Shown here piece by piece: positions 3,455 through 63,865 of a DNA stretch of 64,000 nucleotides. Under the pieces are notes generated by a model, which was not told the DNA's origin, did not search any database, and worked only from the letters and a program-made list of their open reading frames with translations. This stretch comes from Dactylorhiza incarnata (lineage: Eukaryota; Streptophyta; Magnoliopsida; Asparagales; Orchidaceae): NCBI GenBank assembly GCA_033032865.1, contig JAWHQI010000099.1:2675001-2739000 (forward strand), read 5' to 3'. Numbering within the stretch: the stretch's first letter is position 1; every line of letters starts with the position of its first letter. Position numbers and translations under genes: made by a program.

Positions 3455-3815
3455 ACTGCGCACGATCACTGGTTCGATTGCGCACGACCACTGGTCGTGC
3501 GCCGCTGATTGTGTGCACTTAACCCTTTTTTCTGAGTTCTGTCTCAGACAGTGCGCACGACCACCTGCGATGGTGCGCACGATCATCGGTCGTGCGCCAC
3601 TGTTCGTGCGCACTTAACATCAATTTCATGAGTTCTGTTTCGACCAGTGCGCACGACCACCTATGATAGTGCGCACGACCACCGGTCGTGCGCCTCTGGT
3701 CGTGCGAACATGGTATTTTATAAATTTCTTACTTTGCAGGCTCCACCCAGGCAGGCGCACGATCACAGAATTCCAGCGTGCACGACCACTGGTTGTGCGC
3801 CAATGACCGTGCGCA
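3455..3815. repeat. Four-unit array of palindromic CGCACGACCA words in Athila A U3
   Basis: Four degenerate units start near 3455, 3550, 3645 and 3753. Each carries about two forward copies of GCGCACGAYCA followed by about two reverse copies, TGGTCGTGCGC. Two units are preceded by GAGTTCTGT(C/T)TC. The array ends about 20 bp before the TATA box. Confidence 0.9.
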
Positions 3816-3832
3816 GTATTTATTCCAGCGCC

Positions 3833-3840
3833 TATATAAA
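3833..3840 (+). promoter_or_regulatory. TATA box of the Athila A LTR
   Basis: TATATAAA sits right after the U3 word array and about 25 bp before the G30 run, so transcription would be expected to begin at or in the G run. Confidence 0.6.
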
Positions 3841-3864
3841 GTCCTGATCCGCAGATTAGGGATA

Positions 3865-3897
<33 letters not shown>

Positions 3898-4762
3898 CCG
3901 GGAGCACGATTTACCGTCCGTACGCCGCCGTTTTCCACTTCCAGCCACCTCCACCTCATCTTCTCCGCAAGGGGAAGTCATCTCCAGCCATTCTAAGCAA
4001 TCCTCCATCGTCCGGGAGCATTCTCCGCCCTCCGCAAGCACTCAAGCAAGCCATCTCCAGTTCGGTCCGGTGAAAAGAATAGTCATCCTGAGGTAGAAGA
4101 CGACGGAAGCACGTGGAGAGGTCGTGACAGTCTCTCAACGCCGGAAGCACAGTCCGCCCGAGTCCGGAGGTAGCTTGACAAACTACCATTCCAGCCGTGA
4201 ACGGCCGCTAGTCTTCGTCCATTGGTTGATTTCTTCCTCCCCCTTTTGTTGTACTTCTTTGAATCATTTAAACTTGAATATTATGATGTTTAGTTTAAAT
4301 GAAATGGTTGTTTCTTATCCGTTCTTCAGTATTTGCTTATGATACGTCTCACCTTCACTCACTCACTCACTCACGCACTCATCGTGTTCGATTCGCGTTA
4401 GCAAGAGCTAACGGCGATTTGCAAAGAGGTGTTTGCGACCCTCACTCCCCGCACTAGTGATCACTTCATTCGCATGCGCACCGTCCATCCGCCTCACGAA
4501 GCTCGGCATCGCGGCCGTTGCATCCATCTCACCTTGTGAAGCGGTGATTTCGACCCGCATTTCTTTTATTGTTGTTAATGGTAGGAAACCAAATCAAAAC
4601 CCCACTTTCTGTGATTGTTCCCGCTTGTGTAACAATTGTCACACAACGCAATTCGTTCACCCAACCTGCATTCCTCAAGAGACCGACACTCGGGGATCCT
4701 ATTCCCAACATTTATTACTTGCGCGACCGGTGCACTTGCCGAACATCGCATCACTTTACTCC

Positions 4763-7662: not shown

Positions 7663-9154
7663 TGTTGGAACAACCCTATTACTGATTTGGGCTAGGATCA
7701 CTATGTGTTGACTAGGATCAAGTTTACCCCATTGTATAGTTTAAGGGTCAAGTCTTTAGGCTGATAGATTAGCTAGAACTTAAGGAAAAATCTAAGTTCC
7801 CAGCGTTTGAGAAATGGCTATCGGCTCTCGACAGATGGCTGCCAGCACTCGACGAATTCCTGCCAGCGCTCTACAGTTCTCCAGCCAGCGCTCGACAGTT
7901 CTCCAGCCAGCGCTCGACAGATTTCCAGCCAGCGTTTGACATTCTTTGAGCAGCGCTCGATGAATTCCAGCCAGCGCTCGACAAATTCTTTATTAAGGCT
8001 CAGATCGACAAATACTGATTCCAGATCAATTAATACCTTAAATATCAGTTCTCTGAACACAGATCGATGACTCTAACGGATCTATTCAAATATCTTTGGA
8101 CATATTCAAGTCAGATAAGTAAGAATATTATATTCAGTTATTATATCCTTTCTTTCCTTTTTTCAAGACAGAAATAACCGTTGACAATTAATGCAAAGGA
8201 ATATTACACGGCTAAGGAATTAAAGGACCTGCCAAAGTCGTTTGGTTTTTGTTGTTATTCCAAGAAAGGATTAAAGGCTGATTATTCTATTTCCAAAAAG
8301 AGAAGATATCAAGACAGACTTTATTGTCTCAGCTCTCGACATAATTAAAATATATTCTTACAGAATACAGAGAGAGAATATATACAAGTATAACGAAAGA
8401 AAAGAAAAGGATACTATGTAAAAAACATTCTCAGTCTTCTTCTTCCTCAAGCAGCAATCATCATTTCTCTGAGAACATCTTCTTCAAAGATCAAACCCTC
8501 AGATATCTGCTGCAAGATCAAGTCTTCTAAAAAGAGCAACAAAGAATCTGAAGAACTATTTTCTTCCAGATTAATCTGCTACAGAAGATTTTTGTTTTCA
8601 AGAGAAAATTTCTCCACCATCTGTCAAAAACTTCAACCAGACAGGGGGAGCTTTACAACAAGTCTACTAAAGTCTTCTCTCAGCATCTTGACATAGAAGA
8701 ACACTATAAACTCTTTCTCACCTCTCTTGTACAGGGTTAATACTCCCTTCAAAAGTGTACCTCCTTGGTGGCAAGACACCTGATCAAAAAATCTAGTTGG
8801 TTTTGAGCACCTGAACAAAAGCTCTGTGGTGTGTGGACACCTGATCAAAATCACCTTGGTGTTAGGGCACCTGATCAACCCTCCTAGTGGACTCCTACCA
8901 AGGGTGGTAGAAGAGTGGACTACCCAGATTTATTGGGGAACCACTATAAATTCCCTGTGTCCTCTGTGTTTGCTTGTTTCTTTGTGCTGTGCTGTGTGCT
9001 TTTATTTATTCAGTTTTTCTGCTTATATATTTATCTCACACTGCTTACACATATATATAACACTATTTTAATTCCGCTATAAAAACTAAGGAAAAGTTTT
9101 TAATACTCTATTCACCCCCCTCTAGAGTAACTTAAGATCTAACCTCCATTTTCA
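7663..9154 (+). repeat. 3' LTR of copia 1
   Basis: It begins TGTTGGAACAACCC and ends CCATTTTCA. The start and end match the copia 2 LTRs on the opposite strand, but the middle differs. U3 carries CCAGCGCTCGACAG repeats. GAACACCTGATCAAAA-like repeats occur at 8760-8880 and also in copia 2. The flank after 9154 is CCCAG; its partner would be left of the window. Confidence 0.85.
7803..7986. repeat. CCAGCGCTCGAC word array in copia 1 U3
   Basis: About eight degenerate copies of CCAGCGCTCGACAG spaced roughly 20-25 bp apart. One copy reads CGACGAATTCCTG, identical to a word in the copia 4 LTR at about 31870. Confidence 0.85.
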
Positions 9155-9940
9155 CCCAGAGTCGAAACCGCTTTAGGACACTACCGCTAGTGCTACCGCT
9201 ACCGCCTACGCTATTAATCATCGATGAATTCACTTGTGTTCAACATGGTTTGTCGGAATACATTCGTCGGAACATAATCATCGAGAAAGCTGCCGCGAGC
9301 GCTAGCGCTATCATTCGACGAGGCGTATTGATGTTTTCGATGATACACACAAGTTCGTTCGTCGATATGATACTAACTTCTACAATAAGAGCTACCGTCG
9401 ATGCTAGCACTAGTACCTGGCGCTATCTCCCGTCGATCAAGCCCTGATCCCATCGATTGACTCCTGATCCCACCGACCCATCGACTCGTCGACTCGTCGA
9501 CGACACGCATAATTCCTTTCGAGTTACCGTCGGCACTAGCACTAGCGCCCGTCGCTAGCTCCAAGACTTCAAAACCTTTTGAATTCAGTGCACTGGAAAA
9601 CTGGGGTCTTACAACTTGTCCCTTTTCACCGCGCCATCACGCAAGACAGAAGCCACTGTCGGAACTAAGATGAACAGTGGTTTCAAGCTCTTGGTAACGC
9701 CCGTGACTGAGGGCGTGTAACTTGAATTTTTTTCTATAAATTCATAGGTTCTCCTTGAGTCCAGGGTTCAGAATTTTGGAGAGGGGGAGGTGCTGCTAAA
9801 GCTCTTAGTTGTTGTTTTCATGTTTTTTTTTCATGTTTTTCATTTTCATGTTCTCTTTCTCTCTTCCTTGCAATTATGGTTCTAATCTAACTTTCATTCA
9901 ATAGTTTTATGAAATTGTAATCTTTTCTAGCTAGTGTTGT
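9155..9940 (+). repeat. Athila B 5' LTR, first piece (U3 and start of transcript)
   Basis: 9178-9560 is rich in GCTAGCGC, TTCGTCG/CGACGA and ATCGAT words. A TATA box (TATAAA, 9735-9740) follows, then a T-rich leader with repeated TTTTCATG. The piece ends at GTTGT, the target duplication of the solo LTR. Confidence 0.55.
9735..9740 (+). promoter_or_regulatory. Candidate TATA box of the Athila B LTR
   Basis: CTATAAATTCAT lies downstream of the U3 word array and upstream of a T-rich leader. Confidence 0.45.
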
Positions 9941-10129
9941 TGTAACATCCCCCAAACAACTAGACCCATAGAGTAGTTTTGTCATGACTAGGTCATGACA
10001 AAATCCTAGGAAGCTTGAAGAGACCACTTGGCCTTAACCAAGAAGAAGGAAACCACAGTGGTCTGCAAATAGCAATTTCCAGCTAACAAGCATAAGGTTT
10101 GACTTAAGGGCCCCACCTTGACCCTTTGA

Positions 10130-10600
10130 CTCTACCATATCATACCTAACCCTTTAGGGGTCCCCTTAGAGCACCAAGGACCCATTGGGGTCAACCAAAT
10201 AGGTCAAGTTGACCAAAGCCTACCCTAACCTTAAATTGGTCTAAGTAGCCTAAATAGGGTCAATTGACCTCCACCATGCCAAATTGACCTTACCCTTTAC
10301 CTTATAAGGTTATTAGGGACCCAATGGACCAAAAGTCCCCATCATGGGGCCACCAATTTGGCCAATTTGACCTAAGTCAACTCTAGCCTTATTTTGGTCA
10401 AATTGCCCTATTATGGGTCGATCGGCCTCCACCTTGCCAAATTGCCCTACCAAGACCTTTCTAACCCTTAAGAGAGACCAATGGAGCACTACCCACTCAT
10501 TGGGGTCAACCCAAATGGTCAAATTGACCAAAGTCAACCCCCCTAAATTTAGGTCAAAATGACCTATTTTGACCTAATCAGGCCCAATCCACTTGGGCTA
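10130..10600. repeat. GGTCAA/TTGACC inverted-word array in the solo LTR
   Basis: More than a dozen TTGACC or GGTCAA words occur, many paired head to head as GGTCAAnTTGACC. TTGAC(C/T) is the core of the W-box bound by WRKY factors. Whether that protein family uses these sites is not shown. Confidence 0.8.
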
Positions 10601-14226: not shown

Positions 14227-16067
14227 TGAAAGTCAATTGATATGCTTTGATACCAATTGAAAGTGTAGGTTAGATCTTAAATTAACTCTAGAAGGGGGGG
14301 GGGGGGGTGAATAGAGTATTAAAAATTTTCCCATAGTTTTATAGCGGAATTAAAATAGTGATATATATATGTGTATAGAGTGATTTATAAAAACTAAATA
14401 AAAACAAATCAACACAGCACAAGCACAGAAAAGTAATGCAATCACAGAAGACACAAGGAGCTATAGTAGTTCCCCAATAAATCTGGGTACGTCTACTCTT
14501 CTACCACCCAAGGTAGGAATCCACTAGGATTTTTGATCAGGTGCCCTCACACCAAGGGGTTTTTGTTCAGGTGTCCACACACCACAGACCTTTTGATCAG
14601 GTGCTCAAAACCAACTAGATTTTTTGATCAGGTGTCTTGCCACCAATGGGTAAACTTTTGAAGGGAGTTTTAACCCTGTACAAGATGGGATAGAGAGGGG
14701 TTTAGATGTTCTTCTCTGTCAAGATGCTGAGAGAAGACTCTAGTGGATGTATGTTGAAAAGCTCCCTATCTGATATGAAATTGTTGACAGTAGATTGGCT
14801 GGAAGTTTCTTTTCAATGAATGATCTTCCTGTGTAGCTGATTAAACTGAGAGAACAAGTTCTTTAGTTTGTTATTACTCTTTTGAAGATCTAAACTTGCA
14901 GCAAAGACTGAGAGAGTATTGTTGAAGATGTTCTCAGAAAATGAATGATGCTAAAGGAAGAAGAAGATCTGTTAGCTTTTTGGTCTTCTTGTTCTTCCTG
15001 TATATCTCTCCTTTTCTTTTTCTCTGTACAGTTGTATGTAATATGTCTGCATATTTTTTTCTTGTTCTTGTCGAGAAGACTGAGGTTGATAATATTTTGT
15101 ATCTTCTTCCTTATTCTCTTTTGAAAATCTCTTACAGATATTAAATGCAAATCCCTTATATTAAGGAATATAATATTCTGAAGAGATATTCTGAAACTGC
15201 AAATCTGCTGCGCCGTTTATCTTTTTCCTTTTCCAAGAATATATCAATGGCTATAATCTTGGAATAATAAAAGGAAATATATTAGCCTTACTTATCTGAT
15301 AGAAAGAGCCGTTGCTGTAGTCGATCTGAGTTCAGAGAATGGAATACTATAATCTATCTGAAACTTTCTGAACTTAAATAATAATTCTTCGATCTGAGTA
15401 AAATTCGTTGATCTCAATAAATTTCGTTGAACACAAAATTTAGTTCGTCGACCTCAAATGAATCTGGCTGGAAGAATTAATTTTGTTGAGCTGTGGAGAA
15501 CTTTCGTCGATCTAAAGGTATTCGTCGAACGCAGACTGGAGTTCGTCGAACGGAAGGATTCGTCGACCGCTGAGCCTGGATAATTTCGTCGACCGCTAAG
15601 ACTTGATAAAATCATCGATCGCTGAGCAGAGCAAATTTTGTCGACCGCTGAGATGGGATCGTCGACCGCTGAGATGAGCTTGAAGCAAGCCGTTCGATGA
15701 ACACAGAATGTAAGCCGTTCGTCGAACGCAGAGAGCAGTTCGTCGAACGCAGTGTTGAGTTTGTCGAACGCAGAATGTAAGCCGTTCGTCGAACGCAGAA
15801 CACAAGCTGTTCATCAAACGCAGAGAGCATGACATTCGTCGAACGTAGAGAGCATGCCGTTCGTCGAACGCAGAGAGCATGCCGTTCGTCGAACGCAGAG
15901 AGCAGTTCGTCGAACGCAGTATGGAATTCATCGAACGCAGAATCTGAATGAATTCTTGAGTTCTAACAGCCTAAACTCTTGACCCATTGACTATACATTG
16001 GGGTCAACTTGATCCTAGTCAACAAATAGTGATCCTAGCCCAAATCAGTAATAGGGTTGTTCCAACA
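14227..16067 (-). repeat. 3' LTR of copia 2
   Basis: In element orientation it starts TGTTGGAACAACCC (at 16067) and ends ...TTTCA (at 14227). It matches 22225-24074 throughout. The terminal 31 bp is a duplication containing a primer-site-like TTGGTATCAAAG. A C-run lies near the end (12 or more G on the + strand near 14288). Confidence 0.9.
15404..15943. repeat. TTCGTCGAACGCAG word array in copia 2 U3 (3' LTR copy)
   Basis: Around twenty copies of GTTCGTCGAACGCAGAG and the variant TTCGTCGATCTC, spaced about 20-35 bp apart. The same array is at 23395-23945 in the other LTR. Confidence 0.9.
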
Positions 16068-16079: not shown

Positions 16080-17001
16080 TTGGGTTAGGACACTATTTGA
16101 CAAAAATTAAAATAATAAAAAACAATAGAGCATATATATATCTGATATATTTTAAATTTTTCATCAGATATAAAATAAATAGCACTATGAGTTTTGAAAT
16201 TACATTTCAATAAAAACTAATAAAAAGAACCTTTGTCTTTCTCTGAAATCTGACATCTGAATTCTGAATTCTGATCTAATAAATCTGAATTCTGATTTCT
16301 GATTTTGTCTGAACTATATCTGCTATGTTTCAGCTTTCTAAATTTGATCTGAACTGAATCTTTATATTTTGAATTTGATATCTGTTCCAACTTAATCTGC
16401 TTTAACATCTTCCTAAATCTGTCATAATCTGAATCTAATTTTGTATTGAATCTGTTGCTTCTTCATGCATCATTTGTCTCTTTCATAAGATATGTTAGCC
16501 TAAGAAAATATCCCCCCTGAGAATATCTCCCCCTGAGACTGGAGGTTCTTCAGATTTCTTCCCTTGCCTAGTTCACAGAACAACTCCCCCTGAGCAAGAC
16601 ACTGCATCATATGGAGCTTCTTCATAGAACCTCTCCCCTTGCCTAGTTTCAGGAAGGCCTGAAGCTAGGCCCCTTGAAGAAGGGACAATTGATGGAGGTA
16701 GGGAAGGATGCAAGATTGTTATTGCTATTGTTCCTGCACAATAAAATAAAGATCAAGTGCAAAGGGAACTAGAAAGAGAAGCAATTCTGTAGGCATTTAT
16801 AAATAATGAAAAAGATTTTGATTATGAGAACATGGTCAGAAATAAAAAGCTTCATCATAACTGGGTTCGACGAAAAAAGAGTTTTCGTCGATCTCGGTTC
16901 GACGAACTTGATGACTTCGTCGATCTCCGTTCGACGAAAAGCTTGATTTCGTCGATCTCAGTTAGATGAAGAGATGGAATAAGTAGAAAACTTAATTTTT
17001 A
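16080..17001 (-). other. 3' non-coding tail of copia 2
   Basis: No ORF of note; the accessory ORF seen in copia 1 is absent. Several internal purine tracts (for example CTCCCCCTGAG on the + strand at 16525-16600) and a degenerate TCTGAATTCTGA stretch (16250-16400) are visible. At 16865-16965 three TTCGACGAA words alternate with TTCGTCGATCTC words, the same vocabulary as the LTR array. Confidence 0.7.
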
Positions 17002-18875: not shown

Positions 18876-20441
18876 CTAAAACATGTTAGTTTCATCAAAA
18901 GAAACATGCATAGATTCTTCAATTTTAAGAGAGGATTTGTTAAATATCCTATATGCTTTGCTGATTAATGAATAGACTAAGAAAATTCCTTCTTCAGATT
19001 TTGGTTCAAATTTCCTAAGGTATTTCTTGTCATTATTGTGAACAAAACATTTACAACCAAATGCTCTAAAATAGTTAACTTTAGGTTTCTTCCCTTTAAG
19101 TAACTCATAGGGAGTCTTACCCTTAAGTTTATGTATCAAACTCCTATTCAACACATAATTTGCTGTGCTAACAACCTCTGCCCAAAAAGATAGGGGCAAA
19201 TTAGCATCTACAAGTAATGTTGTTGCTGATTCAATTAGGGTTCTATTTTTCCTTTCAACTACCCCATTTTGTTGAGGAGTTCTAGGAGCTGAGAAGCAAT
19301 GCCTGATACCTTCCTTCTCACAGAATTCTTGCATGAGAAGAGACTCAAACTCAGTGCCATGATCACTTCTGATCATTGCAACTACAGTAGAGTACTCAAT
19401 CTGTATGCTCTTAAGAAAATCTGTAAGAACTTTAAAGTTATCTGACTTTTCTCTCAAAAAGAACACCCAAGTGAATCTAGAGAAGTCATATACAATAACT
19501 AGAGTGTATGACTTCCCCCCTAAACTCTTTGTTGTAATAGGTCCAAAAAGGTCCATATGTAGCAAATATAAGATTCTAGGTGAATCACTTTTAGATAATG
19601 ATTTAAAACTATTTTTAGTTTGCTTGCCTAGTTGACATGCCCTACAAAGACCTTTCTTTTATGAACCTAAAGGTAAACCTCTAACAAGATTGTCCTTAGA
19701 TAATTTAGCAATGGTCCTAAGGTTTACATGTCCTAATCTCTTATGCCAAAGTTCACTAGGTTTGCTTAATTCATTAAATAAACAGATTTCTGATTTAGAT
19801 GAATTGAAATTTACTAAATAAATATTACTTTGCCTAATACCTGATAAAACAATAATATTATCAGAAGATTTAATAAAGCATTTTAATTTATTAAAAGTTA
19901 CCTGATACCCTTCATCACATAATTGGCTTGTGCTGTTGAGGTTGTGCTTCAGTCCCTTGACATAAGCTACCTCTTTGAAGGTGACTTCTCCAACCTTGAC
20001 TTTTCCATATCCTTTTGTTTGTCCACAGTTGGAGTCTCCAAATATTACTTTTGGTCCAAGCTTTGTCTTGTAGTTGTTCAGGTTGGCCTTGTTTCCTGTC
20101 ATATGCTTTGAACGACCACTATCCAAATACCATTTTTCATTTATTCTTGGACAGTTGTGTACCTGCAAAGATAGAAAAACAATATATTTGTTCTTGACCC
20201 AGACTACCTTGGGTCTTTTTGAATTTCCACAAAAATCAGAAATAAAACACATTTCAAGTTGGTCCTTATAACCTTGTGGATGATATCTCCTTGGAGGTAT
20301 TAACCATTCAGTGAAAGGATTGATAGTATGTGAAGAATAAGAATTGTTCAGATTTGTTGTATATTTTCTGTTCGACGAACTGGGCTGAGTTCGTCGATCG
20401 CCGTTCGACGAATGAATGAGATTTCGTCGAGCGCCATTCAT
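18876..20441 (-). pseudogene. Protease and integrase of copia 2
   Basis: One frame from 20441 to 18876, with stops near 19657 (after RGLPLGS) and at 18876. The protease site reads DSGRSKHMTG (DSGCS is more usual). The integrase zinc-binding motif is LWHKRLGHVN..., with its Cys pair beyond the stop. The core has Asp in HMDLFGP, Asp in IRSDHGTEF and Glu in [10 protein letters not shown], so the triad is intact. VIVYDFSRF replaces the common VIVDDFSRF. The first 30 residues come from motif-derived repeats (SNGARRN type). Confidence 0.9.
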
Positions 20442-21149
20442 ATAATGACTATACTTAAAATCTGTCTTCAGAGTTCGTCGAGCTCCGTTCGACGAAGTGG
20501 ATACATTTCGTCGAGCTCCGTTCGACGAATTCTGCTGAATTCCTTTATTCTTAACAGCCTTACTTGAAATGTTTTTATTTACATCTACAACCTCTTTGCT
20601 CTTAGCAGAGATGAATTTTATAGGTGTAGATAATATGTTCTTCTTAATCAGATGCGGCTCACTTGATTAAGCACCCAAGCCCAGTTTGCTATTAAGTCTA
20701 GCATTAACAGTGCTTGTAATGTCCATCAGTTTGATGCTTCTCCCATTTAGGGATTCTTCAAATTTCTTGGCCTCAGAAAGTTTATTCTCAATGAGAATAA
20801 TTTGTTTTCTAGAGGCAGCCAAATATTTCTAAAGATTAGCATTCTCTTCACTTAAATTATTCATTTCAGCTAGCTTATGTCTGAGTGAGATTATTTCTTT
20901 CTCATATTTTATTAAGCCTAAGCAAAGAACCTTGAATTCATCTTTGAATCCAACTGAATTGAAATCAAAGTTAGATATTACCTGATCAGCATCATCTTCT
21001 GCTTCTGATTCTGATTCTTCTTCATCAGAATTGTTGGCTGAGGCATTGATTGCCATCATGTAGAAGTTCTTCTCTTCTTCATTATCTTCATCATCACTGG
21101 ATGATGATGCATTTCCTGACTCACTGCCTGAGTCATAAATGGCCATCAA
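20442..21149 (-). pseudogene. Gag C-terminal acidic region and gag-protease linker of copia 2
   Basis: The frame begins with an acidic Ser/Asp/Glu region (SESEAEDDAD), then a helical stretch (LISLRHKL type), with stops near 20827 and 20668. From 20534 to 20369 the DNA carries the TTCGACGAA/TTCGTCGA words. Read in frame they give repeated SSNGARRN peptides. It joins the protease frame without a shift. Confidence 0.7.
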
Positions 21150-22224: not shown

Positions 22225-24074
22225 TGAAAGTCAATTGATATGCTTTGATACCAATTGAAAGTGGAGGTTAGATCTTAAATTAACTCTAGGGGGGTGAATA
22301 GAGTATTAACACTTTTCCCTTAGTTTTATAGCGGAATTAAAATAGTGATATATATATATGTATAGAGTGATTTATAAAAACTAAATAAAAACAAATCAAC
22401 ACAGCACAAGCACAGAAAAGTAATGCAATCACAGAAGACACAAGGAGCTATAGTAGTTTACCAATAAATCTGGGTACGTCTACTCTTCTACCACCCAAGG
22501 TAGGAATCCACTAGGATTTTTGATCAGGTTCCATCACACCAAGGGGTTTTTGTTCAGGTGTCCACACACCACAAAGCTTTTGATCAGGTGCTCAAAACCA
22601 ACTAGATTTTTTGATCAGGTGTCTTGCCACCAATGGGTAAACTTTTGAAGGGAGTTTTAACCCTGTACAAGATGGGATAGAGAGGGGTTTAGATGTTCTT
22701 CTCTGTCAAGATGCTGAGAGAAGACTCTAGTGGATGTATGTTGAAAAGCTCCCTGTCTGATATGAAATTGTTGACTGTAGATTGGCTGGAAGCTTTCTTT
22801 TTAATGAATGATCTTACTGTGTTGCTGATTAAACTGAGAGAACAAGTTCTTCAGTTTGTTGTTGCTCTTTTGAAGATCTAAACTTGCAGCAAAGACTGAG
22901 AGAGTATTGTTGAAGATGTTCTCAGAAAAATGAATGCTGCTAAAGGAAGAAGAAGATCTGTTAGCTTTTGTTCTTCTTGTTCTTCATGTATATCTCTCCT
23001 TTTGTTTTTCTCTGTACTGTTGTATGTAATATGTTCTGTATATTTTTTTCTTCTTCTTGTTGAGAAGACTGAGGTTGATAATCTTTTGTTTCTTCTTCCT
23101 TATTCTCTTTTGAAAATCTCAGACAGATATTAAATGCAAATCCCTTATATTAAGGAATATAATATTCTGAAGAGATATTCTGAAACTGCAAATCTGCTGC
23201 GTCGTTTATCTTTTTCCTTTTCCATGGATATGTCCTTTTCCAAGAATATGTCAACGGCTATAATCTTGGAATAATAAAAGGAAATATATTATCCTTACTT
23301 ATCTGATATAAAGAGCCGTTATTGTAGTCGATCTGAGTTCAGAGAATGGAATACTATAATCTATCTGAAACTTTCTGAACTTAAATAAGAAGTCTTCGAT
23401 CTGAGTAAAGTTCGTCGATCTCAATAAATTTCGTCGAACACAAAATTTAGTTCGTCGACCTCAAATGAATCTGGCTGGAAGAATTAATTTTGTTGAGCTG
23501 TGGAGAACTTTCGTCGATCTGAAGGTATTCATCGAACGCAGACTGGAGTTCGTCGAACGAAAGGATTCGTTGACCGCTGAGCCTGGATAATTTCGTCGAC
23601 CGTTGAGACTTGATAAAATCGTTGATCGCTGAGCTGAGCAAATTTCGTCGACCGCTGAGATGGGATCGTTGACTGCTGAGACGAGCTTGAAGTAAGTCGT
23701 TCGTCTAACACAGAATGCAAGCCGTTCGTCAAACGCAGAGAGCAGTTCGCCAAACGCAGTGTGGAGTTCGTCGAACGCAGAATGTAAGCCGTTCGTCGAA
23801 CACAGAATGCAAGTCGTTCATCGAACGCAGAGAACATGCCGTTCGTCGAAAGCAGAGAGCATGTTGTTCGTCGAACGTAGAGAGCATGCCGTTCGTCGAA
23901 CATAGAGAGCAGTTCGTCGAACGCAGTATGGAGTTTGTTGAACGCAGAATCTGAATGAATTCTTGAGTTCTAACAGCCTAAACTCTTGACCCATTGACTA
24001 TACATTGGGGTCAACTTGATCCTAGTCAACAGATAGTGATCCTAGCCCAAATCAGTAATAGGGTTATTCCAATA
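22225..24074 (-). repeat. 5' LTR of copia 2
   Basis: Partner of 14227-16067. Its outer end reads CCAATA, so the canonical TG start has mutated to TA. The TTCGTCGAACGCAG array is at 23395-23945. Confidence 0.9.
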
Positions 24075-32095: not shown

Positions 32096-32103
32096 GCTGA
32101 GGC

Positions 32104-43506: not shown

Positions 43507-43518
43507 CCTCTGATACCA
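43507..43518 (-). promoter_or_regulatory. Primer-binding site of copia 3
   Basis: The minus strand reads TGGTATCAGAGG right after the 5' LTR. Confidence 0.85.
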
Positions 43519-44690
43519 AGTTAAATTTTTTTGATTTGAATCGTTTAGGAGTAAGCAGGAGTTGCATCAACTGAGTTAAAGCCAAACAACCACAATGCCA
43601 CACAGCAACACAAGAAACTTTATTGAAACACAAACTTCATTTACAGTGCGAGGTATACATGGAGAGATATGATTCATCAGAATCACGGAGACGAGAAGAA
43701 CAAAACACATCAAAACAAATCTTGCGGCTAGATAAGCTGAGACCGCACATACCGCTCGACTCCAGAAGTCGCCCTGCTTGACCTGAGATCGCACGAACAG
43801 AAACCGGACAAATTGCCAGCACTACAATACCGCACCTCAGACCGCACGAACTAGAGCTTTATTGGAACGAAGAACTGAAGCTGTCGCCAGACCGCAACTC
43901 AGATCGCCTAACCGCTGAAGGTCGCCTGATCGCTGAGCTCGCTGCGAACAGCACAAGAATGAACATAAACCAGTTCGCAGACAGACCGTTGTCGAACTGT
44001 TTATTCAAGCCGCTGGGAAGAAGACCGCAACCTGCTGACCGCAAACCTGCGAACACAACAAACAGTCAACTCGCTTCCGAGACCGCCCGACCTCAAAGTG
44101 AGACCGCACGAATTAACCCAGGCTTAGTTCTTGCAGTTCTCGTTAGGAATGACGGGCCCTGCACCTCTATTTATAGGCGGGTAGACGGATGTCGTCACCT
44201 CACATGAGAGATACAAACACCACCCGTCAGATCGCCAGCGGTCTGATAAAGCAGACCGCGCGACCACACTACTTGGACGATCATCCGACCAAGACGCAGA
44301 TCAGCAGACAGGTCGCGCACAGGTCGCCCGAGCACGAGACCACGCACAAGCCGCGCGATCACAAAGGTACTCCTTCCTTAGACCACCAGGAGTAAACCAG
44401 GAACCATCTGGCCGATTTAGAACAAGTCGCCAGATCGTCAAGCACAAACCGCTCGGACAGGCGGCCACACATAGGAATAGACCGCCCGGTCTTCCAACAA
44501 GGAAGACATGCCAACCAGCACACCAACTCGGGAATAGACCGCAGCTACAAAGAACAAATCGGTAGAACCAGTAGTCCGCCAGAACAGACCGGCAAAGCCA
44601 GACTGGCAGAATACAAGCACAGGCCGCGCGGTCTCGGCGGTCTCCCAAAATCAGACCGCCCAGTCTCTACTTCACTTCAAATATTCAACA
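43519..44690 (-). repeat. 5' LTR of copia 3
   Basis: Partner of 28764-29947; the same AGACCGC words run across 43735-44670. It joins directly to a truncated chromo 5 LTR at 44691. Confidence 0.88.
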
Positions 44691-44754
44691 CTTACGCCCA
44701 AAATCAAGTCACAATGGGCACACAAATAATCAACGAAATACCAGGGGCGTTTCA
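44691..44754 (-). repeat. Truncated chromo 5 LTR start (right piece)
   Basis: Corresponds to 27947-28010 in the left piece. In element orientation it starts TGAAACGCCCC where the left piece has TGTAATGCCCC. Confidence 0.8.
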
Positions 44755-46006: not shown

Positions 46007-46249
46007 TGTTAGTTATGGAACGTTCACCTAGAGGGGGGGGGGAGGGTGTTAGGTGATCTTGGTTCTTTTTGATATATTAGTGTGAGTTATAAGTATTTAA
46101 GCACAGCAGTAAAATACCACACACACAAAAACACAGCAGACGACCAAAGATCTATAGAGGTTCCTCAAGATAGGGTGCCTTGAGTAGTCCTCTATCCCTC
46201 TACGCCTACCTAGCAGTGTACTAGGTTCAGCAAAACTCTGCCAAAATGC

Positions 46250-46640
46250 TTCAGGCCCTCAAGCCTTACAACACGGACCTGCAAGTCCCAACAGCCTAGG
46301 CCCGCAAGCCGCTACTGCCCCCGAGCCCGCAAGCTCGACACTCAGGCCCTCAAGCCCTACAATACGGACCCGCAAGTCCCAACAGCCTAGGCCCGCAAGC
46401 CCCTACTGCCCCGAGCCCGCAAGCTCGACAAATCGCACCCGCAAGTGCACTGCACTGGCCCTCAAGCCTCATAGCTCTCCAGCCCGCAAGCTAGACGGTG
46501 TCGAACCCGCAAGTCTACTGCCCTGGCCCTCAACCCTCACAGCTCTCCAGCCCGCAAGCTAGATGGTGTTGGACCCGCAAGTCCACTGCCCTGGCCCTCA
46601 AGCCTCACAGCTCTCCAGCCGTCAAGCTAGAAAAATTGGC
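46250..46640. repeat. CCCGCAAG minisatellite in copia 6 R/U5 (3' LTR copy)
   Basis: Units of about 65-70 bp built from CCCGCAAGTCC, GGCCCTCAAGCC and CCCGCAAGCTAGAC. The other LTR has the same array at 53840-54225 with three clear units. Confidence 0.85.
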
Positions 46641-46945
46641 CCGCAATCCTTACAAAGATTACAGTAATAAAACTGTTACTTCTGCTAGATGAAGATTGGA
46701 AACTTTAGTCTGTTGAAGATCGGCTCCTTGAGATTGAAGAAGATGTTTCTGAATTAGATCTTGAGCACACGGTTCTTCTTCAAATCTTTTCTTAGCCTGA
46801 TGAAGATTGGCAACTTAACAGACGATGAAGATGACTGCTTCTTCTTTTTCTATCTTTCTTACGCCGCTTGTACTGTTCGATTCAGAATATGCACAAGTTC
46901 TTTCTTGTTGATCGATCGATACCGCGTTAGGGCAACCTCTTATCT

Positions 46946-46954
46946 CTTTTATAA
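46946..46954 (-). promoter_or_regulatory. TATA box of the copia 6 LTR
   Basis: The minus strand reads GTCTTATAAAAGAGATAAG; the same motif is at 54530-54538 in the 5' LTR. Confidence 0.6.
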
Positions 46955-47084
46955 GACTGCGAGGTCCCCAACGGTCATCTGAAAAAGTGCCTTAAGTGTC
47001 AGACGCTCCTTTCCTTAAGAGCACGCGCTGATTAGACAATCAGGCGGCGACATTAAATGCTGATAGCGCGTCTGCAACTTTTGA

Positions 47085-47690
47085 ATCTATCTCGACGATA
47101 TTTCCATTATTACGACGTCATGGATAATATCTCGACGACAGGACTTTGTCAATGCCTTGAACTTGGGTAGACCTTCAGTTCTTCTTGCTTCTACCTCTGA
47201 AGTAGATATCTCGACGATTCGAGACATTCTGCCGCTTCAGCATATACAATGATATGCTGTCTCTGACTGTGTCATTGTTATCACCTTGTTCTCTCGACGA
47301 CATGAGTGATAGCATGCCGACAGACCATATTTTAGCAGCTGCTTATCTTCAGCTGTCCTTCTTCAGTCTTCTCCATGACATTCCTTCTTTACGACGATGT
47401 TCGACGACATCAGTCATACTTAGCCTTTTCAGCGACAAGGCCACTTTGGTGAAGTCGACGATACCGCATCTTCTCTGCGTTCGATGATCTTGCCCAATCT
47501 CAGTGGTCGACGATCTTCCTTTTGAGTTCGACGATCTTCCTTTTTCGTTCGACAAACACGCCAAGTCTCAGCGGTCGACGATCTTCCTTCTGAGTTCGAT
47601 GATCTTCCTTTTTTGTTCGACGAACTCCCTTCTGCGTTCGACGAACTCCCTTCTGTATTCGATGAACTCCCTTCTGCGTTCGACGAATCT
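47085..47690. repeat. TTCGACGA(A/T) word array in copia 6 U3
   Basis: Upstream half: TCTCGACGA and TACGACG words. Near the LTR start: GCGTTCGACGAACTCCC and GTTCGACGATCTTCC repeated about every 20 bp. The core equals the copia 2 word. Confidence 0.85.
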
Positions 47691-47805
47691 TGTTCTTCTA
47701 GTATCCTGAGATTTATAAGCTGGAGAAATGATCAAATACAAAGTGAAGTATTCTTTACTTGGTGACTTCTTCAAATCAGGAATCACGTGGTCAAGATTCC
47801 CAACA

Positions 47806-53516: not shown

Positions 53517-53571
53517 GGTGAGTCGTCCCTTGATCTAGATCAGACGGTTAAGTATTCCTTTGATCAACCTC

Positions 53572-53583: not shown

Positions 53584-53839
53584 CTTATTAGTTATGGAAC
53601 GTTCACCTAGAGGGGGGGGGGGGGGGGGGTGTTAGGTGATCTTGGTTCTTTTTGATATATTAGTGTGAGTTATGAGTATTTAAGCAAAACAGTAAAATAT
53701 CACACACACAAAAACACAGCAGACGACACAAGACCTATAGAGGTTCCTCAAGACAGGGTGTATTGAGTAGTCCTCTTTCCCTCTACGCCTACCTAGCAGT
53801 GTGCTAGGCTCGGCAAAACTCCACCAAAAAGCTTCAGGC

Positions 53840-54225
53840 CCTCAAGCCTTACAACACGGACCCGCAAGTCCCAACAGCCTAGGCCCGCAAGCCCCTACTG
53901 CCCCCGAGCCCGCAAGCTCGACACTCAGGCCCTCAAGCCCTACAATACAGACCCGCAAGTCCCAATAGCCTAGGACCGCAAGCACCTACTGCCCCCGATC
54001 CCGCAAGCTTGACAAATCGCACCCGCAAGTGCACTGCCCTGGCCCTCAAGCCTCACAGCTCTCCAGCCTGCAAGCTAGACGGTGTCGGACCCGCAAGTCC
54101 ACTGCCCTGGCCCTCAAGTCTCACAGCTCTCCAGCCCGCAAGCTAGACGGTGTCGGACCCGCAAGTCCACTGCCCTGGCCCTCAAGCCTCACAGCTCTCC
54201 AGCCCTCAAGCTAGACAAATTGGCA
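53840..54225. repeat. CCCGCAAG minisatellite in copia 6 R/U5 (5' LTR copy)
   Basis: Contains about three consecutive 68-69 bp units starting ACCCGCAAGTCCACTGCCC, preceded by shorter CCCGCAAGCCCCTACTGCC-type units. Confidence 0.85.
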
Positions 54226-54891
54226 TGCAAGCCTTACAAAGATTACAGTAATAAAACTGTTACTTCTGCCAGATGAAGATTGGCAACTTTAGCCTGTTGA
54301 AGATCGGCTCCTTGAGATTGAAGAAGATGCTTCTGAATCAGATCATGAGCGCACGGTTCTTCTTCAAATCTTTCCTTAGCCTGATGAAGATAGGCAACTT
54401 AACAGTCGATGAAGATGACTGCTTCTTCTTTTTCTAACTTTCTTGCGCCGCTTGTACTGTTCGATTCGGAATATGCGCAAGTTCTTTCTTGTTGATCGAT
54501 CGATACCGCATTAGGGCAACGTCTTATCTCTTTTATAAGACTGCGAGGTCCCCAACGGTCTTCTGAAAAAGTACCTTAAGTGCCAGACGCTCCTTTCCTT
54601 AAGAGCACGCGCTGATTAGACAATCAGGCAGGGACATTAGATGCTGACAGCGCGTCTGCAACTTTTAAATCTGTCTCGATGATATTTCCATTGTTACGAC
54701 GTCACGGACAATATCTCGACGACAGGACTTTGTCGATGCCTTGAACTTTGATAGACCTTTAGTTCTTCTTGCTTCTGCCTCTGAAGCAGATATCTCGATG
54801 ATTCGAGACATTCTGCCGCTTCTGCATATACAACGATATGCTGTCTCTGACTGTGTCGTCGTAATCACCTTGTTCTCTCGACGACATGAGT

Positions 54892-54896
54892 GATAG
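54892..54896. repeat. Target-site duplication GATAG of Tekay 7 (left)
   Basis: Identical to 63866-63870. Removing 54897-63870 restores the copia 6 LTR text GAGTGATAGCATG seen at about 47305. Confidence 0.97.
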
Positions 54897-56948
54897 TGTA
54901 ACACCTCCCCTGCAATGATCATATAACATGGGTCCGGCCGGGACCCCACGACATATAACCGCCACAGCTTCAGTATTAAAAGATGATATTGACTACCCAT
55001 TCTCAAAACTCAGACAACACAGCGGAAACAAACATAAAACACAGAGATTGTCCATACTACATAGGAGTCCAACTGGCCCTTAAGGCCATACAAAACCACA
55101 GTCCAAATCACCAAACATTCAACACAAAAGAACGTCCCAACAAAAGGGGACAGATAATAGTTTTACCTAAACTACCTCGGGATGCAAGCCGGTTACAACA
55201 AAATGTAATAATAAAAGTGCATGAAGACAAGGTAAACACTTCATGAGGCTTTAGGCCTTTTTGGCCGGCGCGCTGAGTCCAGCCTGCGATTCTTGCCCTG
55301 CAACCAAATCACAAAGAGCGGTAAATGAGGGTCAGCTATGGCTGACCACAAACGGTGTAACAACATCCCTCCTCCCGGCCGTCCTAGCGGACCCCGGGGA
55401 ACTACTTCACCCTGCAAGTCAGCACTTCGTATGCAAATGTACATAAACGGAAAACAGCATAAAAACAGGTATGAGTGTCACATACAGCATCCACGTTTCT
55501 ATGTTGAGCAGATAATAAAAAGGGGCCTATCAATGCAAAATGAATGCAAACTCGGGTTTCACCCAAGGCACCATAAAGCGTATGAATCTATCACATCATC
55601 ATACATCATCATCACATCACAAACACAAGGGTACTCATCATTTCCCCGCAAGGGCATCATAACCCAAGGACAAGAGCTCTCGCTGAGACCCACCTCGCCT
55701 GGCTCACCATGCCATCGGGCTTGTCTAACAGCTCACACGCTCGAGCCTCCAACAACACACCAAGACCGATACTAAGAATTCTGGCTAACCAAAACGTCCC
55801 AAGGCCCTGGACTTACTCTCGGGACAACGTCCACCAATTGCCTCGCCTGGCGACCGTCAACGGACTCATCCGTAGCACAGACATTCTCGTCAGTCAACAA
55901 TCGAAGGGACTAATCTTGCCGGGACACTCTCCACACGCGAATCTCAGTCTTCACGGGATAGCCAGCCGACCACAAAGACCAATCGCGCCTTCGCACAACA
56001 CTAGGCATCACAAGCCCCATATTCCGCACATTATTTCTCCGCCCTAAACCCAACGTTCGTTACCACATGAAGCTACAAGGGCATCACAACGACGAGTTCG
56101 CCGTAATCGGATTTCTAACAAAACCCCTAAAATGCGCGTAAATCAACATCACCGAATCAGACCAACGGCCACAAATCCGGCTTCACCCACAATGCCTGAT
56201 CCACTAACGGAGCGGATCTCTAGTGCAAATCATGTCGGGGACGGACTCAATCAACCCGATGGTTCCTTTTGAACCAAGGCGACCCGGATCCCTCTCACTC
56301 GACGGATCCGGTGCCAAAATGCAGAAAATAAAGGGATGCCAAGCACGCATCCTAAAGACCGGGAGGAGAAATGTCGTTACCTTTTGAGATCTCCTCCTAG
56401 CCATGAGAAGCTTGCAAACCAACGGTGGAGAAGAAGCGCCTTGACGCCCTCTACGCGTTGCCGGTCGCGGATCGGCGATCGGAGCTCCGAAGCTCCAACA
56501 ATGGCGGATCTCCCCTCTTCTTCCTCCTTGCCCCCTTCTCTTTTCTCCAACCTAAGAGAGAAAAGGCTTGAAAATATGAGGGATTAACCCCTCATCCAAG
56601 CCCTAAATCCCCCCAGCGAAACATCTCAGCCGCTGGATCAAATCCCGAAATATTTGATCGGTCGGATCGTCATCCCCGCACGATTTCGCGGAACAGAAAT
56701 AAACAGGGCGCACGATCACAGGCGCACGATCACTGGTCGTGCGCGAAGAGGAGAATGGTCGTGCGATAAGCCGAGACAGAACTCCGATTCCTTACGAGAT
56801 ACGCACGATCACTAGCGCATGATCACTGGTCGTGCGCGAAGAGGACAATGGTCGTGCGCATAGAACTGTTGTGGAATTTTTAGCCTATCCCGAGCGCAGC
56901 ATTACCACTCCGCCTACCTCGCTGAACTATGATTTTTGGGGTGTTACA
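54897..56948 (-). repeat. 3' LTR of Tekay 7
   Basis: In element orientation TGTAACACCCC at 56948 to GGTGTTACA at 54897. It carries the GCGCACGATCA array at 56708-56860 in U3. Non-coding; small ORFs across it look like chance. Confidence 0.95.
56708..56860. repeat. CGCACGATCA / TGGTCGTGCG array in Tekay 7 U3
   Basis: Two units, each with two CGCACGATCA words followed by two TGGTCGTGCG words, separated by the reverse complement of GAGTTCTGTCTC. The other LTR (63639-63777) lacks one word of about 14 bp. Confidence 0.92.
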
Positions 56949-60427: not shown

Positions 60428-60466
60428 CCTACATTATAGTAATAACGAAACATAAACCTTTCGTAC
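60394..60466 (-). other. Candidate 73-nt GT-AG intron between gag and protease of Tekay 7
   Basis: The donor is GACAG|GTACGA and the acceptor GGTTAG|GTTTC, preceded by a T-rich stretch (TTGTTTTGCACG). Splicing removes the gag stop and the odd tail [11 protein letters not shown], giving [14 protein letters not shown], which reads like the continuous VVTG...VLFDTG stretch of related elements. Unspliced RNA would make Gag alone. Confidence 0.65.
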
Positions 60467-61586
60467 CTGTCACCACATCGGGTTGACGCATCGCTTCCTG
60501 TTGCCCAAGAATATAGGGTCTAGGCTGCACTGGAGGGAACCGCGAAGCACTCGACTCCGCCGCTTTCCCCTTCTCTGCAACACTGGGACCCGAACGCACC
60601 GATTGTTCTTGTCTCAGCTCTGGCCCAGCTCCGCCCTCGGTACAAAAACGACTAATGTGACCCACCTTGCCACACTGGTAACAAGTAACCGGACCTTTGG
60701 AACGGAAATCTCCCGAAGGTGCGCCACTTCTCTCCCCAGGCCTATTAGGACGGGGCTTCTTCTTCCATCGGCTGCCCTCAGACTTCCACTGGGGCTGAGA
60801 CTGAGAAGGCTTTCCTTCTCCCTGCCTTGCCGCAACACCCTTTCGCAGCTGAGTTCGCTCCAAGTCGCTCTCCAGCGTGCGAGCGGCTTCGACCAACTCA
60901 TTGAATCCCGCATTCTTCAAGGCTATGAGTGGTTGCCTTAAATTTTCCCTCAACCCTTGATAAAAGAGGTTATCTCTTTCTTCATCATCTGCCATAGTCG
61001 TACCCGCATAATGACCCAACCGAGTGAACTCTTGCAGATATTCATCCACTGTCTTCTCCCGCTGCGCCAAATGCAGAAACTGCCGCTGCAGTGCTAACCT
61101 TGTTGAAGCCGGAATGTAACGCTTTAGGAAAGCGTTTCCGAACTCCTCCATGGACGGAACATGCCCAACAAAATGTCGACCGTTATGGTTCACCCACCAC
61201 AACTTCGCATCGCCCTCTAACATGAAGCTCGCAAAGTGAGACTGCCTCTCAGCTGGGGTCTCAGCTGCCTTCAAGAGCTCCTGGATCCTCGAAAGCCAAT
61301 CCTCGGCATCCGTTGGAGTGCCCACTCCCTTGAATGTCGGAGGGTGGAAACTCAAGAAATACTTCATGAATCGATCACCCATCGGAATAGCTCTCTCCGC
61401 TAAAGGCTCTGCTTGCCTTACTTCGACCTCCGGTGTATCCGGTGTATCCAGCGTAGCCGCCGGAGTAACAGGAGTCGCAACTTGCACTACTGGCGTAGGA
61501 ACCTGTGGCATCGCTCCAGCTTGAGCCGCTACCATTGCCTCCGCAAGCATGCGACAGAAATCATCCAGGGACATGCCCACATTCAT
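60429..61586 (-). CDS. Gag of Tekay 7
   Basis: A 385-residue frame. After a Pro/Thr-rich N-terminus, the capsid-like region (residues 71-245) has [18 protein letters not shown] and AKLWWVNH; a basic stretch (267-283) and one zinc knuckle C302-C305-H310-C315 ([14 protein letters not shown]) follow. The start at 61586 is the first in-frame ATG after an upstream TAG near 61665. The last 11 residues come from the candidate intron. It would package element RNA and, when the RNA is spliced, form the N-terminus of Gag-Pol. Confidence 0.92.
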
Positions 61587-61810
61587 GAGGCCTGGAGCAG
61601 TAGCACTGCTCCCCGAAGGCTCCTCTTGCCTCCTCGACGTCCCCGCATCGTCGCCAACGTCCTAGCATAAGCAAGAAAAAAATAAAAGCTCATCAGGATC
61701 TAAACGCAAGACTCGAACGCAGGGATACTCATGATCCCGCACAATACTCCTATGTGGACAATCTCTTACGCGATCCAAAAACACTAGACCTCGCAAGAAT
61801 ACTAAACCTG

Positions 61811-61822
61811 GCTCTGATACCA
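61811..61822 (-). promoter_or_regulatory. Primer-binding site of Tekay 7
   Basis: The minus strand reads TGGTATCAGAGC (then CAGG) three bases after the 5' LTR, a perfect initiator-Met type site. Confidence 0.92.
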
Positions 61823-61825
61823 AAT

Positions 61826-63865
61826 TGTAACACCTCCCCTGCAATGATCATATAACATGGGTCCGGCCGGGACCCCACGACATATAACCGCCACAGCTTC
61901 AGTATTAAAAGATGATATTGACTACCCATTCTCAAAACTCAGACAACACAGCGGAAACAAACATAAAACACAGAGATTGTCCATACTACATAGGAGTCCA
62001 ACTGGCCCTTAAGGCCATACAAAACCACAGTCCAAATCACCAAACATTCAACACAAAAGAACGTCCCAACAAAAGGGGACAGATAATAGTTTTACCTAAA
62101 CTACCTCGGCATGCAAGCCGGTTACAACAAAATGTAATAATAAAAGTGCATGAAGACAAGGTAAACACTTCATGAGGCTTTAGGCCTTTTTGGCCGGCGC
62201 GCTGGGTCCAGCCTGCGATTCTTGCCCTGCAACCAAATCACAAAGAGCGGTAAACGAGGGTCAGCTATGGCTGACCACAAACGGTGTAACAACATCCCTC
62301 CTCCCGGTCGTCCTAGCAGACCCCGGGGAACTACTTCACCCCGCAAGTCAGCACTTCGTATGCAAATGTACATAAACGGAAAACAGCATAAAAACAGGTA
62401 TGAGTGTCACATACATCATCCACGTTTCTATGTTGAGCAGATAATAAAAAGGGGCCTATCAATGCAAAATGAATGCAAACCCGGGTTTCACCCAAGGCAC
62501 CATAAAGCGTATGAATCTATCATATCATCATACATCATCATCACATCACAAACACAAGGGTACTCATCATTTCCCCGCAAGGGCATCATAACCCAAGGCC
62601 AAGAGCTCTCGCTGAGACCCACCTCGCCTGGCTCACAATGCCATCGGGCTTGTCTAACAGCTCACACGCTCGGGCCGCCAACAACACACCAAGACCGATA
62701 CTAAGAATTCTGGCTAACCAAAACGTCCCAAGGCCCTCGACTTACTCTCGGGACAACGTCCACCGATTGCCTCGCTTGGCGACCGTCAACGGACTCATCC
62801 GTAGCACATACATTCTCGTCAGTCAACAATCGAAGGGACTAATCTTGCCGGGACACTCTCCACATGTGAATCTCAGTCTTCACGGGATAGCCAGCCGACC
62901 ACAAAGACCAATCGCGCCTTTGCACAACACTAGGCATCACAAGCCCCATATTCCGCACATTATTTCTCCGCCCTAAACCCAACGTTCGTTACCACATGAA
63001 GCTATAAGGGCATCACAATGACGAGTTCGCCTTAATCGGATTTCTAACAAAACCCCTAAAATGCGCGTAAATCAACATCACCGAATCGGACCAACGACCA
63101 CAAATCCGGCTTCACCCACAATGCCTAATCCGCTAACGGAGCGGATCTCTAGTGCAAATCATGTCGGGGACGGACTCAATCAACCCGATGGTTCCTTTTG
63201 AACCAAGGCGACCTGGATCCCTCTCACTCGACGGATCCGGTGCCAAAATGCAGAAAATAAAGGGATGCCAAGCACGCATCCTAAAGACCGGGAGGAGAAA
63301 TGTCGTTACCTTTTGAGATCTCCTCCTAGCCATGAGAAGCTTGCAAACCAACGGTGGAGAAGAAGCACCTTGACGCCATCTACGCGTTGCCGGTCTCGAA
63401 TCAGCGATCGGAGCTCCGAAGCTCCAACAATGGCGGATCTCCCCTCTTCTTCCTCCTTGCCCCCTTCTCCTTTCTCCAACCTAAGAGAGAGAAAAGGCTT
63501 GAAAATATGAGGGATTAACCCCTCATCCAAGCCCTAAAGCCCCCCAACGAAACATCTCAACCGCTGGATCAAATCCCGAAATATTTGATCGGTCGGATCG
63601 TCATCCCCGCACGATTTCGCGGAACAGAAATAAACCGGGCGCACGATCACTGGTCGTGCGCGAAGAGGAGAATGGTCGTGCGATAAGCTGAGACAGAACT
63701 CCGATTCCTTACGAGATACGCACGATCACTAGCGCACGATCACTGGTCGTGCGCGAAGAGGACAATGGTCGTGCGCATAGAACTGTTGTGGAATTTTTAG
63801 CCTATCCCGAGCGCAGCATTACCACTCCGCCTACCTCGCTGAACTACGATTTTTGGGGTGTTACA
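61826..63865 (-). repeat. 5' LTR of Tekay 7
   Basis: Partner of 54897-56948, 12 bp shorter mainly because one CGCACGATCA word is missing from the array (63639-63777). Confidence 0.95.

Follow-up and report, generated by a model that had tools for sequence, protein, structure and literature searches.

A stretch of 64,000 nucleotides from the orchid Dactylorhiza incarnata (assembly GCA_033032865.1, contig JAWHQI010000099.1, positions 2,675,001 to 2,739,000; hereafter the window) was analysed, in which pairs of long terminal repeats (LTRs) and open reading frames agree with a series of nested copia and gypsy retrotransposons. The LTRs carry dense arrays of short recurrent words, most of them containing CpG. 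The original prediction, made from the letters of the window, held that nearly every LTR family has its own swarm of short CpG palindromes, mostly in U3 and often close to a TATA box, and that these may serve a sequence-specific recruitment system. The word arrays are confirmed as real and as general in the LTRs sampled, and they are likely to be clusters of cis-regulatory binding sites that act as upstream activating sequences in the LTR promoters, kept by purifying selection and most probably used by host factors. The window and all genome-wide counts come from a genome of 3.27 Gb in 3184 contigs. The principal features are as follows, in window positions.

3458..3814, + strand: Athila A LTR array; 15 GCGCACGAYCA-type words in ++-- modules, spacing 22-12-14, with a TATA-like box at 3833
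7663..8462, + strand: copia 1 3' LTR, start and first 800 bp; direct CAGCGNTCGAC array at ~7803-7990
14227..16067, - strand: copia 2 3' LTR; CTGCGTTCGACGAA / CAGCGGTCGACGA array at ~15440-15941
16865..16960, - strand: copia 2 linker array; TTCGTCGA/TCGACGAA inverted pairs
20372..20530, - strand: copia 2 gag-pol array; in frame, with NGARR-type peptide repeats
22225..24074, - strand: copia 2 5' LTR; array at ~23410-23930
28753..29950, - strand: copia 3 3' LTR; GCGGTCT words, dispersed and strand-biased
31667..32786, + strand: copia 4 5' LTR; GCGCTAGCGC/TAGCG words at 31829-32097, the last 5-6 bp before TATA, and two TTCGACGAA
39949..41063, + strand: copia 4 3' LTR; words as in its 5' LTR
43508..44692, - strand: copia 3 5' LTR; GCGGTCT words as in its 3' LTR
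46007..47803, - strand: copia 6 3' LTR; TCGTCGA array at 47494-47687 (the copia 2 word in opposite orientation) and CCCGCAAG array at 46251-46631
53585..54896, - strand: part of the copia 6 5' LTR; CCCGCAAG array at 53834-54216, interrupted by Tekay 7
54897..56948, - strand: Tekay 7 3' LTR; Athila-type ++-- module at 56708-56861
61826..63865, - strand: Tekay 7 5' LTR; module at 63639-63777

Local 8-mer recurrence was scanned in windows of 400 bp against dinucleotide shuffles with a cut-off of z > 6, and 113 of 637 windows across the 64 kb exceeded it; all ten arrays named in the original prediction fall within these peaks. Recurrence was also scored in a set of 20 LTRs (30.2 kb) drawn from the window and a comparison block, several of them copies of one family, where a recurrent 8-mer was defined by at least four copies within 400 bp and each LTR was shuffled 100 times as a control. 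The set gave 188 recurrent 8-mers and the 2,000 shuffled LTRs three altogether, a wide margin over chance. CpG occurs in 160 of the 188, against an expectation of 62.5 given all 8-mers in these LTRs (85% versus 33%). At least one recurrent 8-mer was found in 17 of the 20 LTRs, the others being copia 4 and the Tat LTRs b1 and b4; the copia 4 LTR, which has no 8-mer under this rule, yet contains TAGCG 14 times (shuffled maximum 5). Outside LTRs, 45.5 kb of the window yielded 31 recurrent 8-mers (10 containing CpG), all confined to the copia 2 internal arrays and the TTCTCGAGAA region described below. Genome-wide counts take three of the words well beyond the few copies of the window, with 211,615 places for GCGCACGACCA (reversed control 173), 120,064 for CTGCGTTCGACGAA (control 12) and 9,220 for CCAGCGCTCGAC (control 133). 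Among 74 matches of CTGCGTTCGACGAA listed on one contig, 44 of the 73 gaps are shorter than 500 bases, many of them 21-26 bases, and several clusters of these listed matches lie 8-12 kb apart, the spacing expected of LTR pairs.

The comparison sample is one arbitrary 200-kb block, C22:1,000,001-1,200,000, which was added to reach beyond the arrays already named and is only partly blind, the places of CCAGCGCTCGAC within it having been known beforehand. It holds several of the window words together with new ones. At C22:1,093,500-1,155,000 (L018-L024) a segmental duplication of nested elements has placed a second copy of a ~26-kb segment ~36 kb beyond the first, and this second copy was excluded from the LTR set and counts. 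Among candidate LTR pairs, 11 of 20 have TG...CA ends and an exact 5-base target repeat, with shifts of up to 12 bases allowed and one repeat being AAAAA. Several LTR starts were set from the position of the polypurine tract (PPT), and copia 1, Athila A and the LTR-like stretches X1 and X2 entered the set as pieces or with inferred ends. The elements are split by their primer sites, which are of the iMet type in copia and Tekay, TGGCGCC in Athila and TGGTGCGG in Tat; we take these types to mark lineages.

A TATA-like box closely follows the words in 9 of 14 LTRs, which have at least seven words within 400 bp upstream of it and at most one downstream. The box scored is the one after the array; further TATA-like matches occur in b8, b13, b5, the window Athila (AthilaWin), b7 and copia 2, and the box of b3 matched only under a looser pattern. 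Upstream:downstream counts are 19:0 in AthilaWin, 23:0 in b3, 22:0 in b13, 21:0 in b8, 7:0 in b5, 13:0 in copia 4, 12:0 in b7, 13:1 in b10 and 8:0 in copia 2. The last word stands 1-34 bp from the box in seven LTRs (Athila A, b3, b8, b13, b5, copia 4 and b7), and the gap is wider in copia 2 (64 bp), b10 (73 bp) and copia 1 (38 bp, with two words upstream). The claim that the words end near TATA holds for these seven LTRs, but fails for copia 3. A run of 30 G is also seen at 3866-3895, ~30 bases past the TATA-like box of the Athila A LTR.

One spacing module is common to Athila and Tekay. In four Athila LTRs and in Tekay 7 the GCGCACGAYCA words are ordered ++-- at 0, 22, 34 and 48, apart from a few that are missing. 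When Tekay was set against 13 Athila units in an ungapped 59-base register, leaving out the last module of each Athila LTR (spacing 23, not 22), the spacers were identical at 58/351 positions (17%, chance 27%) and the words at 904/1001 (90%), a figure that is partly so by construction, the words having been located by likeness; the spacing and the chance-level spacers are free of that. In the long spacer, Tekay 7 and Athila A have a string of 14 bases, GAGTTCTGTCTCAG, in common, and nine of its bases occur in the other three Athila LTRs; the module is therefore most likely homologous and passed between the lineages, with only words and spacing kept afterwards, the Tekay side being represented by one element, Tekay 7. 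Convergence of the words was rejected, given that the spacing and the strand order agree as well as this string. The word of Athila b5 is GTCACGGGCGTGAC. Tekay 7 itself is inserted in the copia 6 5' LTR with the target repeat GATAG (54892-54896 and 63866 onwards), and a search of viral contigs with its gag found no relative.

Among the copia elements, a TCGAC-centred word, C[AT]GCGNTCGAC or TTCGACGAA, is common to the Sirevirus-type copia 1, 2, 4, 6 and b7. The notion that each family has words of its own is therefore only partly correct, as this word and the GCGCACGAYCA of Athila and Tekay are shared. Reverse transcriptase (RT) identity among copia 2, 6, 4 and b9 is 54-90%, and b7 was placed with copia 4 by LTR similarity. 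Several PPT copies upstream of the 3' LTR, a Sirevirus hallmark, are present in copia 2, 4, 6 and b7; in copia 1/b9, copia 3, b12, b10 and four gypsy elements at most one PPT-like match each was found, and b9, whose RT is 90% identical to that of copia 2, may have lost the hallmark. The copia 1 word derived from 131 units is CAGCGNTCGAC with a free centre, and the copia 4 LTR has only two TTCGACGAA copies. The copia 6 array is reversed relative to its LTR, and an identical 14-mer is found in copia 2 in opposite orientation. Its TCGTCGA words were located in U3 of the LTR that extends to 47803, the other LTR being split by Tekay 7. The copia 2 array is not confined to the LTR, since its word is also present in the linker and in gag-pol. 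In gag-pol, at 20372-20530, the words encode SSNGARR-like peptide repeats upstream of a protease-like Pol_BBD domain.

Further copia lineages have arrays of other kinds. The word of b10, from another lineage (RT 32-36% identical), is [CT]CGACGAAT. The GCGGTCT word of copia 3 and b12 occurs in 10 strand-specific copies per LTR (shuffled maxima 5 and 6), and in copia 3 it recurs amid random-looking flanks. X1 and X2 also carry it, at strand ratios of 14:11 and 11:7, that is, without strand bias; over the 1.2 kb of X1 compared, X1 matches the copia 3 LTR across 134 bp only, although identity reaches 77-96% in the adjoining coding pieces. A good number of the copia arrays consist of direct, strand-biased repeats and not of palindromes (9:0 in copia 1 of b9, 20:0 in the copia 2 LTR, 23:3 in copia 3). 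Copia 3 is directly flanked, outside its LTRs, by 817-bp segments at 27947-28763 and 44691-45507 (95.7% identical, gypsy integrase C-terminal coding, same orientation), which do not represent a target-site duplication.

Evidence for constraint comes from comparing differences within and between elements. Between the LTR mates of nine Athila elements, differences number 17/1232 in words, 3/420 in spacers and 10/840 in the upstream flank (words versus the rest, p = 0.47). Between the nine elements, divergence is 4.8% in words, 20.5% in spacers and 14.1% in the upstream flank, and the ratio of ratios for word versus flank is 0.285 (bootstrap over elements 0.09-0.56). Athila words thus mutate as fast as their surroundings after insertion, yet diverge less between elements, which argues for a word-specific constraint. 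Dropped from this test were modules with an upstream flank differing at more than 12/30 sites, mate modules showing over 25 differences, and the copy in the window, which has no mate; when that copy is added, the values are 4.8%, 22.3% and 15.3% for word, spacer and flank. In eight copia 1 elements the words are 18.4% and the spacers 33.6% divergent (bootstrap difference -0.195 to -0.120), in an alignment that has the b9 pair as an outlier (identity 0.846) and possibly misaligned tandem arrays. These comparisons indicate that the word is constrained relative to the spacer in Athila and Tekay and, in part, in copia 1.

The fate of the CpGs was followed between LTR mates in 16 pairs, using initial, too short LTR ends for copia 6, b7 and b9. 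CpG transitions were counted at 45/389 in words and 113/946 outside words (odds ratio 0.96, p = 0.93), and the rate outside words is ~9x the non-CpG transition rate there (227/16893). Resident copies therefore decay at word CpGs as elsewhere, which speaks against lasting protection. In the copia 2 interior, where the observed/expected ratio of CpG is 0.20, 28 of 38 CpGs are inside words that cover 1.6% of the bases. Taken jointly, the decay in resident copies and the CpG retention in copia 2 suggest either selection acting among the copies that replicate or a multiplication of words after the depletion. The internal ratios are 0.20 in copia 2 (16068-22224), 0.14 in copia 6 (47804-53584), 0.08 in copia 1 (4750-7650) and 0.98 in Tekay 7, and the nearly CpG-free interiors of copia 2, 6 and 1 still hold long open frames.

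The reading of the arrays as binding sites draws on observed enrichment, the position before the TATA-like box in 9 of 14 LTRs, the constraint on Athila words and the shared module; protein binding, activation and a host origin of the factor are the parts that we infer. Each word, in many cases one half of an inverted pair with fixed spacing, would be recognised by a sequence-specific DNA-binding protein, most likely one or a few host transcription factors common to several families. Once bound, this protein would drive transcription from the TATA box directly downstream. Purifying selection among replicating copies would keep the words, while spacers drift and units multiply by duplication, and a whole module could cross between lineages, as it most likely did between Athila and Tekay. 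Enhancer boxes are a feature of Tnt1, Tto1 and ONSEN.

Several observations weigh against this reading. The nearest word of copia 6 is 138 bp from the TATA-like box, the Tekay 7 LTR has no TATA-like match, and the strongly strand-biased words of copia 3 and b12 lie on both sides of TATA. The copia 2 words in the linker and gag-pol are unexpected for a simple upstream activator. Calling the Athila modules from three of their four words biases the apparent word divergence downwards; the fourth word, which played no part in the calling, diverges by 9.9%, or 0.48 of the spacer value (0.29-0.66). The copia 1 ratio of ratios includes 1 whether words are set against spacers (0.50-1.20) or against the remainder of the LTR (0.58-2.30), and the comparison of two copia 3 elements, which has low power, gave no word-specific constraint.

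A VANC-like anti-silencing system, in which an element-encoded protein binds the words of its family and removes methylation, is improbable. The likeness to the VANDAL/VANC system of Arabidopsis (PMC5735166; Sasaki et al., 2023, PMC10398659) lies in short tandem motifs that are mainly non-coding and change between some related families, and the available text of Hosaka et al. (2017, PMC5735166) describes VANC targets as tandemly repeated motifs of 8-9 bases, variable among related transposable elements. The spread of the copia 2 words over LTR, linker and gag-pol and the extra open reading frame after copia 1 pol would fit such a system as well. However, VANDAL elements are DNA transposons with an encoded binding protein, whereas here the words are common to different lineages, the Athila-type b8 and b13 keep full arrays without a gag or pol match, and CpGs inside words decay after insertion no differently from those outside, with no sign of protection. 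The 17 window open reading frames of at least 200 amino acids gave gag and pol domains in Pfam scans and, besides these, only one sub-threshold Transposase_32 match; the Pfam scans and one PDB sequence search gave no element-encoded binding protein, and no search with a VANC sequence was made. The recruitment proposal is thus upheld in so far as words and spacing are kept in Athila and across Athila and Tekay while spacers drift, and words precede the TATA-like box; its VANC-like and methylation-evading versions are disfavoured. A dedicated recruitment or anti-silencing system is possible, with analogy as its sole support.

Methylation also enters through the idea that the words attract or absorb CG methylation as a host-imposed or self-limiting silencing signal. 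The fast decay of word CpGs after insertion fits methylated resident copies, but it equals the decay of CpGs elsewhere in the same LTRs, and it is difficult to see why selection among replicating copies would preserve such a signal, so we give this idea very little credence. Neutral tandem duplication, with slippage producing arrays that are CpG-rich because the LTRs are young, would account for the tandem periods of 20-26 bp and 96 bp and for the word copy number that varies between copies. It is nonetheless highly improbable in view of the word/spacer contrast in a fixed ungapped register, the CpG share of the recurrent words, their near absence from shuffled LTRs and the GCGGTCT words of copia 3 amid random-looking flanks. 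Hairpins of RNA or single-stranded DNA, acting as a source of small interfering RNA (siRNA), a decoy or a packaging signal, are very unlikely. Athila (z -9.2 and -12.6), b5 (-9.8), b10 (-6.8) and the copia 2 linker (-5.1) are predicted to fold strongly, and copia 2 gag-pol (-3.5), copia 4 (-2.6) and Tekay 7 (-2.3) less so, and an siRNA excess at maize Sirevirus palindromes is reported (PMC10760457, citing Bousios 2016). The LTR arrays of copia 1 (1.4), copia 2 (-0.3), copia 6 (0.2) and copia 3 (0.7), by contrast, have no excess predicted folding, and hairpins were rejected as a general explanation on this ground; the placement of arrays before the TATA-like box likewise speaks against them.

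A bolder form of the binding-site reading is that unrelated copia and gypsy LTR promoters share a small set of CpG-containing words, exchanged as modules, since one or a few trans-acting factors, perhaps retrotransposon-dedicated and either host-domesticated or element-encoded, decide which families can be transcribed; the copia 2 linker and gag-pol words would then let the factor coat the whole element. We regard this form as unlikely.

Arrays of this kind have a precedent. The available text of Bousios et al. (2010, PMC2829016) describes symmetric motifs, present at high copy number in Sirevirus LTRs, which define CpG islands a short way ahead of TATA and are absent from classic copia elements, with a CGG-CCG core to which Tnd-1 is an exception. 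Similarly, words cluster just before TATA here in copia 4 and b7 and more loosely in copia 2 and copia 1, though not in copia 6, extra copies are found in the linker, and copia 2, 4, 6 and b7 also have multiple PPTs. Unlike those motifs, the core here is TCGAC-centred (words TTCGACGAA, CAGCGNTCGAC and GCGCTAGCGC), arrays are also present in copia elements without multiple PPTs (copia 3/b12 and b10) and in the gypsy elements Athila and Tekay, and a module is common to the gypsy lineages. Since such arrays are already published for Sirevirus LTRs, their recurrence is less unusual than had been claimed; the gypsy and non-Sirevirus copia cases go beyond that account. In short, the arrays look like a kind known from Sireviruses, here in further lineages with partly shared words. 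Outside Sireviruses, the cluster just upstream of the TATA-like box is seen in Athila, b5 and b10 but not in copia 3/b12.

Tekay and Del are presumably one lineage. Del LTRs can carry CpG islands, with none in eudicot Del elements according to the available text of Cruz et al. (2014, PMC4029996). The CpG-rich stretch in the 5' part of the Tekay-type LTR resembles these islands, whereas here it holds a defined word module common with Athila. In the Tnt1 superfamily the U3 of plant copia elements is reported to diversify fast and in modules while the coding part stays (PMC1838419); this fast modular change of a regulatory U3 is similar, but many-copy arrays and a cross-lineage module are found here, and the available portion of the Tnt1 account mentions no word arrays. 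In maize, cis-regulatory regions of transposable elements are described as often being arrays of sometimes palindromic repeats, with hairpins concentrated in copia LTRs and no obvious gypsy peak in the text available (PMC10760457). For six of the words, the open-licence literature yielded a listing of 17 papers, none of them on plant retrotransposons by its title; no search aimed at an Athila-Tekay module was made.

Three further word-rich stretches of the window stand apart from the arrays discussed above.

9217..9550, strand not assigned: 'Athila B' words, weak and of putative lineage; CGACGA 6 times (shuffled maximum 5), ATCATCGA 3 times (shuffled maximum 1) and GCTAGCGC-type matches
10118..10574, strand not assigned: solo LTR array; 14 TTGACC words without CpG (shuffled maximum 6)
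26697..27050, + strand: TTCTCGAGAA array of 14 exact copies, directly after a gag fragment (PF03732) and in no detected LTR

The 'Athila B' array is within a z > 6 peak, but its CGACGA count barely exceeds the shuffles and its GCTAGCGC matches overlap at two places. The solo LTR has a genuine array, although its words lack the CpG ascribed to them; TTGACC resembles the W-box motif, in line with the binding-site reading. The TTCTCGAGAA array, listed earlier among the LTR arrays, lies outside every LTR detected. CTCGAGAA has only 4 matches in the 200-kb block. An extra pair of open frames follows copia 1 pol at 4748-7462, with the sub-threshold Transposase_32 match, and the first part of the pair shares 80% identity with the corresponding place in b9.

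These data suggest that repeated-motif promoters extend beyond Sireviruses as a broader strategy, which Athila, Tekay and further copia lineages employ as well, and that one regulatory module or more moved from one lineage to another. Words at ~10^4 to 2x10^5 exact copies, constrained in the best-tested family, would provide a direct handle on the proteins that switch retrotransposons on, and their hundreds of thousands of copies are potential binding sites spread through the genome.

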